From Deltaproteobacteria bacterium (GTDB taxonomy: Bacteria > Desulfobacterota > GWC2-55-46), in contig JADLDY010000037.1 in NCBI GenBank assembly GCA_020846435.1, positions 1-64,000 on the forward strand: a stretch of 64,000 nt of DNA, in the 5' to 3' direction. The position numbers were made by a program, and so were the translations under genes. Every line of letters begins with the position of its first letter. Positions within the stretch are counted from its first letter, which is position 1. Positions 32,761 to 34,171 of this stretch are shown one piece after another. Below the pieces are notes generated by a model. It saw nothing but the letters and a program-made list of their open reading frames with translations, did not search any database and had not been told where the DNA came from.

Positions 32761-32789
32761 TTGACATATGAGCGCAACAGGAGTATCAT
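32761..32789 (+). promoter_or_regulatory. Strong sigma70 promoter for 6S RNA candidate
   Basis: A consensus TTGACA (32761-32766), a 17-bp spacer and TATCAT (32784-32789). Transcription should start near 32796-32798, exactly where the closing stem of the RNA begins. Confidence 0.8.
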
Positions 32790-32796
32790 AATATTA

Positions 32797-32975
32797 GTAA
32801 AAGGCGCATCCGTTTGGAGATGAGCTTCAAGTCGCTTCCGCGAGGGGTCCTTCCGATGCGGGGTGTGCAAGCCGACCGGGTTATGCGGGAGCATCACCCG
32901 AAGCCGGAAGCCTTAACCGCCTCTCTGGACCGCCACCTGTAACAATCCTCAATCTCCCAGGGTGCGCCTTTTAAT
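32797..32975 (+). ncRNA. ssrS: Probable 6S RNA
   Basis: A ~178-nt segment without an ORF folds into one long rod. The ends pair perfectly (AAAAGGCGCA, 32799-32808, with TGCGCCTTTT, 32963-32972) and then TGGAGATGAG with CTCAATCTCCCA. A distal hairpin uses GGTCC/GGACC, CTTCCG/CGGAAG and GGGTGTGC/GCATCACCC, with an unpaired central region holding GAAGCCTTAA, a segment also present in E. coli 6S RNA. The length (E. coli 184 nt), a consensus promoter and a location in a gene-free gap all fit. 6S RNA binds sigma70-RNA polymerase and tunes transcription in stationary phase. It is a judgement from structure; no covariance search was possible. Confidence 0.72.
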
Positions 32976-33048: not shown

Positions 33049-33077
33049 TTGCGCCTCTGTCGTATTTCTGCTATAAT
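33049..33077 (+). promoter_or_regulatory. Sigma70 promoter of the second small RNA
   Basis: TTGCGC (33049-33054), a 17-bp spacer and a perfect TATAAT (33072-33077). The predicted start is near 33084. Confidence 0.75.
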
Positions 33078-33083
33078 TAAGGT

Positions 33084-33270
33084 AGAGAAACAGGCGTTGA
33101 CCGGACTGATGAAAGGGTCAAAAACCCTCCATCCGCAGGGTGCGTGCAAACCACCTAAAGAGGCTCCGGGGTAAAAAACCGGAGAGCCGACGGATTGGAA
33201 AAAAGCAGTCCAACAAATGCCTGTTTTTCCATTTAACCGCAAAAAAAAGGGGCCTCTTGGCCCCTTTTCA
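33084..33270 (+). ncRNA. Unidentified structured small RNA (~187 nt)
   Basis: An independent transcription unit with its own -10/-35 and an intrinsic terminator but no ORF or ribosome site. The ends pair: AAACAGGC (33088-33095) with GCCTGTTT (33219-33226), GTTG with CAAC and GACTG with CAGTC. Inside are AGGGT-caaaa-ACCCT, a CCATCCG/CGGATTGG helix, a GGGTG..CACCT hairpin and GGCTCCGG..CCGGAGAGCC, giving a multibranched fold. It does not match the common riboswitches, SRP RNA, RNase P or tmRNA cores that I know. The downstream gene is on the opposite strand, so it is not a leader. It could be a second 6S-like RNA or a new regulatory RNA. Confidence 0.65.
33245..33268 (+). terminator. Bidirectional intrinsic terminator
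   Basis: The stem GGGGCC/GGCCCC (33249-33264, loop TCTT) is flanked by A and T runs on both sides. It ends the small RNA on the + strand and can end the lipoprotein gene on the - strand. Confidence 0.88.
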
Positions 33271-33301: not shown

Positions 33302-34171
33302 TTATTCTTTTTCCAGTTCCATTTCCATCTCGGTCGTCGCTCCCTGCCTTATCGAGACCTTCTCTGTAGCCTGTTGGAACCCCTTGTTTTTTAACGTTAT
33401 CTCGTAGACGCCCGGCGCGAGGTCTATCTTCAAGGGTGTGAGGCCGTAATAAACGCCGTTGATGTAAACCTTCGCTCGTTCAGGGGCCGAGTTTATCGCG
33501 GCAGTTCCTGAGGCCATATCCGGCTGTGTTCCGGCTTCATCTTTTATAATCGGGGCGCCCCCGGCAACGGCAGGCAGATGCGCACCCATCTCCGCGATAG
33601 ACCGCCTTATGGCCTTCTGGAGGGAGGCGCCGATATAATTGGAGAGAGTCGTCCGTGAGTTGCCCATCACCCCGGCGAACCTCTCGCCCTTTTCAGCCTC
33701 AACCCCTGTCCAGAGAGTTTTTCCTGTACCGGCTTCCTTTAATACGGAGGATATCTCGATCGCTATGTCGTCCGTTGAGCCGACATTGAGGCTGAATTCG
33801 CGAACCTCGCCTGAGACGACGTATCCGGCCTTCCCGGTTTCGGTGACGACTGTGAAGCCGGAGAGCGCGAGCTCTTTTTCAAAGGCCCTTGTCGTTATGT
33901 CAGCGGCGTTTTCAGAGAGCGTGAGCTCGCTTGCGTTCATGTCAGAGACGGTCGAGAGAATCCTGCCGATGGTCCTGGGGTTTTTGGACTGGCTCCTTGA
34001 GAGGTCCCTTTTGTCCTCGAATCTGGAGACGAATACTGGTAGAGCCTCTTTTGTTTTGAACTGGCCCTGCGTCTTGGGCTCGTATTTTACCTCGAGCGGC
34101 CCGGCGCAGCCGGCAAAGATCAAAAGAAGGAGAGATAAAAACGGGATGAGTTTTCTGTGGTTTCCTGCCAT
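33302..34171 (-). CDS. PEGA-domain lipoprotein
   Basis: A 289-residue lipoprotein. Signal and lipobox are FLSLLLLIFAGC, with lipidation at Cys22. Residues ~45-215 resemble curli-type or DUF4136-like secreted domains (LPVFVSRFEDKRDLSRSQ, TTRAFEKELALSGFTVV). The C-terminal ~65 residues are a PEGA domain (SAPERAKVYINGVYYGLTPLKIDLAPGVYEITLKNKGFQ), a beta-sandwich often found in surface proteins. It lies downstream of the cytochrome-porin gene on the same strand but is separated from it by a strong terminator. The function is unknown. Confidence 0.82.
   Translation of the reverse strand: MAGNHRKLIPFLSLLLLIFAGCAGPLEVKYEPKTQGQFKTKEALPVFVSRFEDKRDLSRSQSKNPRTIGRILSTVSDMNASELTLSENAADITTRAFEKELALSGFTVVTETGKAGYVVSGEVREFSLNVGSTDDIAIEISSVLKEAGTGKTLWTGVEAEKGERFAGVMGNSRTTLSNYIGASLQKAIRRSIAEMGAHLPAVAGGAPIIKDEAGTQPDMASGTAAINSAPERAKVYINGVYYGLTPLKIDLAPGVYEITLKNKGFQQATEKVSIRQGATTEMEMELEKE

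Follow-up and report, generated by a model that had tools for sequence, protein, structure and literature searches.

A structured non-coding RNA family often encoded next to a second 6S RNA in Deltaproteobacteria

Organization of the Locus

The window analyzed here is a stretch of 64,000 nucleotides of contig JADLDY010000037.1 from a Deltaproteobacteria bacterium, which encodes two small RNAs in tandem on the forward strand. The first is a second 6S paralogue (6S-2; 32797-32975), preceded by a promoter recovered in the promoter scan (TTGACA-N17-TATCAT; 32761-32789). Its Rfam match spans 32845-32946 and scores 30.4 bits, which is under the Rfam cut-off, with the conserved 6S core present. The canonical 6S RNA of this genome is found on another contig (C30) and scores 64.8 bits. 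6S RNA restrains RNA polymerase and is among the most widespread bacterial regulators.

The second RNA, termed RNA X, is a structured non-coding RNA of about 187 nt (33084-33270, forward strand), delineated by its fold z-score, its homologues and covariation; the start site is an estimate, placed 7-8 nt past the -10 box. It is preceded by a promoter (33049-33077) with a -35 box TTGCGC (33049-33054), a spacer of 17 nt and a -10 box TATAAT (33072-33077), the latter immediately preceded by TGC, i.e., an extended -10. This promoter is missing from the list of the consensus scan because TTGCGC agrees with the consensus at just three of six bases. The element TTGC(A/G)-N16/17-TGN-TATAAT/TAAAAT is found at the equivalent position in most of 45 homologues, and in most copies of the window's class the promoter leads into a start region that is conserved and resembles ATAAGTAGAG. 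With a promoter of its own, RNA X would form an independent unit of transcription in the class. At the 3′ end, the terminator scan identified an intrinsic terminator (33245-33268) with ten pairs and a T-rich tail, and the next gene (33302-34171) is located on the opposite strand. The mature RNA may end near position 33230, at the point where P1, the closing helix, passes from its 3′ strand into UUUUU; the same transition into a U-tract is found in many relatives.

The promoter, the strong terminator, the orientation of the next gene and the stand-alone character of the RNA had all been part of the original prediction and are borne out, with the extended -10 and the conservation of the promoter at homologues as additions. 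Its position directly after a 6S candidate also stands, and the pairing is kept in another order; the candidate is the second 6S RNA of the genome. The suggestion that RNA X could itself be a second 6S-type RNA had to be dropped, as this label fits the neighbor (approximately 32797-32975). A cis-acting leader or terminator structure, for which the terminator at the end of RNA X could speak, is unsupported and hardly credible given the RNA's own promoter, the opposite-strand gene downstream, and neighbors that differ to the point that no downstream gene is common to the carriers.

Fold and Covariation of RNA X

The predicted fold of RNA X has an energy of -80.9 kcal/mol versus -51 kcal/mol for shuffled sequences (z -7.65; none of 200 shuffles was as good). 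The paired ends and internal helices that had been predicted were recovered as a 14-bp closing helix (33085-33098 with 33216-33229) enclosing five more helices, whereas the predicted length of about 187 nt may be an overestimate if the mature end lies near 33230. The closing helix consists of P1 (5′ strand 33085-33098), with changes on both sides in all eight consensus pairs, and P2 (33103-33108, pairing with 33206-33211), which is backed by covariation; the joint 3′ strands of P2 and P1 occupy 33206-33229. It leads into a three-way junction with P3, a small covarying hairpin (33115-33127), and P4, of which the 5′ strand (33128-33136) contains the conserved CATCCG and pairs with the 3′ strand GACGGATTGGA (33189-33199), the core being nearly invariant. 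Nested within is a second three-way junction with P5 and P6. P5 is a hairpin with the core GGGUGCGUGCAAACCACCU (33138-33156) and UA/CG/GC/AU exchanges in its stem, while P6 (33162-33188) is a simple hairpin in the window and exceeds 100 nt in some relatives. The joints are purine-rich: both J5/6 (33157-33161) and the A-rich J4/2 (33200-33205) are conserved single strands. Within the class, the core CCATCCGCAGGGTGCGTGCAAACCACCTAARGAGG ... CCGRCGGATTGGnnnAAAGC shows hardly any variation, and the stretch between its two halves ranges from 24 to 132 nt, with P6 free to vary in length. In two diverged members (L116 and L117), which represent rare forms, the pairing of P4 or P5 appears by eye to be kept with other letters.

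Changes on both sides of a pair were found for 21 of 37 pairs in an alignment of 31 sequences (91.5% of cells paired), 27 of 37 in one of 48 sequences (91.6%), and 31 of 37 in one of 52 sequences that is weighted to distant members (87.5%); among these alignments, A1 is a plain MAFFT alignment, and fitting to the covariance model biases A2 and A3 towards it. When the partners were slid by one to three columns as a control, 29-45% of cells were paired, and none of 500 shuffles matched any observed value. The original prediction had named a significant Rfam hit, or a missing transcript together with unconserved stems among relatives, as grounds for its rejection; no such hit was obtained, and the covariation analysis finds the stems conserved. 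At the level of sequence comparison, RNA X is thus supported as a real, structured, non-coding RNA with a six-helix fold backed by compensatory changes.

Comparison With Known RNA Families

No family of Rfam 15 exceeded its gathering score in cmscan on RNA X, be it in the window, at the class loci or at the distant loci, and a permissive Rfam scan of the window RNA gave chance-level matches only. The best of these sub-threshold matches is SraG (RF00082; 32 of 50 bits), whose score comes for the most part from the terminator hairpin and from filler that aligns loosely, and not from the conserved core. SraG, Atu_C8, STnc320 and similar matches were all rejected, since every one takes in the terminator. 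A hammerhead was likewise discarded: the window RNA contains CUGAUGA, but the motif is not kept in relatives. The intricate covarying fold, with two three-way junctions and conserved purine-rich joints, would suit a stand-alone ribozyme or a metabolite-binding RNA, but RNA X lies outside any 5′ UTR and no Rfam ribozyme or riboswitch passed the cut-off, which makes this reading quite unlikely.

We found no description of RNA X in the main texts of open-licence papers, although an earlier transcriptomic mention is possible. A motif survey of 50 genomes lists yjbM and nifV as Geobacter riboswitch candidates located in 5′ UTRs, and 6S RNA goes unmentioned in its main text (PMC11109978).

The orphan structured RNAs raiA, OLE, GOLLD and ROOL are stand-alone, covary strongly, have no conserved protein target gene, and were of unknown function at their discovery. 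RNA X resembles them in the first three respects; it matches none of them in Rfam, differs in size and fold, and is linked to 6S RNA and tRNA-Sec. We regard the existence of the family as nearly certain. The original prediction that RNA X belongs to none of the common RNA families and could represent a new one agrees with the lack of an Rfam match and the strong covariation, and it is well supported that RNA X is a new RNA family without a known relative; it is not a proven new biochemical principle.

Distribution of RNA X

A DNA search identified relatives of RNA X in 31 of 59 related genomes, including that of the window. Covariance model R1 gave a single RNA X in each of 42 of the 63 class genomes, or 43 with G037, where it was recovered on closer look. 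The named records of the class are genomes of uncultured Deltaproteobacteria (e.g., GWA2_55_10 and HyVt-575). RNA X also occurs outside the class, in other families of the phylum. With the broader model R2, carriers numbered 18 of 38 genomes in the G338 order and 13 of 38 in the G374 order; both orders look Desulfuromonadia-like by gene content. Few further carriers were found in a phylum-wide sample, in which the search was of reduced sensitivity. Among the carriers in other orders are complete single-contig genomes, whose gene content suggests kinship with cultivable Desulfuromonadia.

Some genomes have two or three RNA X copies at separate places. This is the case for G463, G454, G457, G460 and G470, where part of the copies have an adjacent 6S RNA and part do not. 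These copies gave no match to a phage, plasmid or viral record. A mobile-element origin of RNA X was considered and rejected, no match being found in viral contigs, phages and plasmids.

Association With 6S RNA and tRNA-Sec

6S-2 is located upstream of RNA X in eight genomes of the window's class (G000, G004, G005, G012, G019, G024, G028, and G033). Of the 25 RNA X copies in the G338 order, 17 begin 1-12 nt 3′ of a co-oriented 6S RNA, and a 6S RNA ending 1-12 nt before RNA X is also present in L158/L159. A distance of 1-12 nt is too short for a promoter, so the two RNAs of the G338 order would share a transcript, a co-transcription that we infer from the spacing. No 6S RNA was detectable beside RNA X in the other eight of the 25 copies, nor in most of the G374 order. 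In genomes with more than one 6S RNA, the top-scoring one is never the RNA X neighbor; in G452, G458 and G466, the sole 6S RNA found is this neighbor. Duplexes of matched 6S-2 and RNA X pairs gave a mean of -94.9 versus -95.1 for mismatched pairs, and hence no signal, in a crude calculation that ignores internal folding. The linkage may reflect shared expression only.

RNA X and 6S RNA (SsrS, RF00013) are both small, stand-alone RNAs of similar length with paired ends, and the gene for RNA X adjoins that for 6S-2, RNA X in one order apparently being part of the 6S transcript itself. A diverged 6S RNA is nevertheless very improbable. RF00013 gives no match on 33084-33270 up to an E-value of 10, while it does match the neighbor at 32845-32946, already a genuine 6S-2; conversely, the RNA X model retrieves no 6S RNA, so that a sequence or model match between the two is absent in both directions. 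Moreover, 6S RNA is a rod with a central bubble that serves as template for product RNA, whereas RNA X is branched and has no such bubble, the covariation backing two three-way junctions instead.

A second neighbor is tRNA-Sec: of the 31 class genomes that contain both, 28 have it downstream of RNA X in the same orientation, at a distance of 1-599 nt (median approximately 95). The gene order in the class is often [6S-2]-[RNA X]-[tRNA-Sec]; examples of such three-RNA clusters are L041:1107-1204, L040:2801-2898, and L048:2801-2898. The gap between RNA X and tRNA-Sec is sometimes only 1-15 nt, which suggests a polycistronic non-coding transcript. In L119 and L121, which lack RNA X, a similar stretch with GTTGTCGCTGCGGCTTC...GAAGCCTTGCTCCGCC precedes tRNA-Sec on its 5′ side and appears by eye to form an inverted repeat.

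The tRNA-Sec linkage would fit an RNA of the selenocysteine system that acts on tRNA-Sec or on selenoprotein synthesis. This reading has been weakened and is now very unlikely. At least ten genomes that lack a true tRNA-Sec still carry RNA X, among them that of the window and all six of genus g6, so RNA X is not obligately tied to it; seven genomes have tRNA-Sec with no RNA X found; and in the other orders there is no tRNA-Sec near RNA X. Given the occurrence of RNA X without tRNA-Sec and the lack of linkage in other orders, the arrangement seems to reflect a common cluster of RNA genes and not a functional requirement. The genome of the window (G000) as a whole yielded no true tRNA-Sec, while its relatives carry one beside RNA X; the selenocysteine system has probably been lost there.

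Possible Function of RNA X

Outside the class, the protein-coding neighbors of RNA X vary and comprise, as judged by eye, lysS, an Nramp-like transporter gene, enolase, an ABC-F protein and others. RNA X is therefore taken to act in trans. Such a position without a cis target gene, together with the conservation of its single-stranded stretches, would be expected of an Hfq-independent antisense RNA that pairs with mRNAs through the exposed conserved loops (P5 loop, J5/6 and J4/2). We consider such a role unlikely. Hfq (PF17209) was found in none of 62 class genomes by a search that was positive in 5 of 14 control genomes, and its absence speaks against a Hfq-dependent antisense role. In addition, the letters of the P5 loop and P4 differ in the diverged members although pairing is retained, and the numerous junction constraints are unlike those of a simple seed RNA.

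RNA X shares with CsrB/CsrC, besides a trans-acting nature, some GGA motifs, and CsrA (PF02599) is encoded in 36 of 62 class genomes. Many members have an AAGGA stretch, which reads AAAGA in the window and in most of genus g6. The number of GGA motifs per RNA is 6.2 versus 4.8 expected by shuffling, a slight excess counted without regard to loop placement and short of the strong enrichment of CsrB/CsrC sponges. PF02599 gave no match in 15 class carriers of RNA X, which speaks against a role as CsrA sponge, and no CsrB/CsrC match exceeds the cut-off; the weak sub-threshold CsrC matches at two RNA X loci do not define the family. A CsrB/CsrC-like sponge is accordingly a most doubtful proposal.

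The reading that we favor, tentatively and with somewhat less than even confidence, is a new trans-acting RNA family that likely binds protein and acts jointly with 6S-2 on a global factor such as RNA polymerase. Transcription of RNA X would start at its sigma-70-type extended -10 promoter, end at the intrinsic terminator and go along with expression of 6S-2. It would then act as a protein-binding regulatory RNA, not by base pairing with mRNA, and its target, shared with 6S-2, would be the RNA polymerase holoenzyme or some other global factor. This proposal draws on the adjacent 6S-2, the 6S-like paired ends, the lack of a conserved protein neighbor outside the class, and genomes devoid of Hfq. 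The folded core with purine-rich junctions, combined with the paired ends and the 6S-2 linkage, makes a protein-binding global regulator the best guess for the mechanism, still a cautious one. A more specific variant, which we consider possible but rather unlikely, is a two-RNA module in which RNA X is a dedicated partner or antagonist of 6S-2 on RNA polymerase; the two would be produced from one precursor in one order and from neighboring genes in another.

The question of why many bacteria keep a second 6S RNA becomes testable through RNA X, which accompanies the weaker, second 6S RNA and not the top-scoring one where several exist. Its frequent position right after the second 6S RNA hints at a so far unstudied RNA that partners 6S in the global control of genes.
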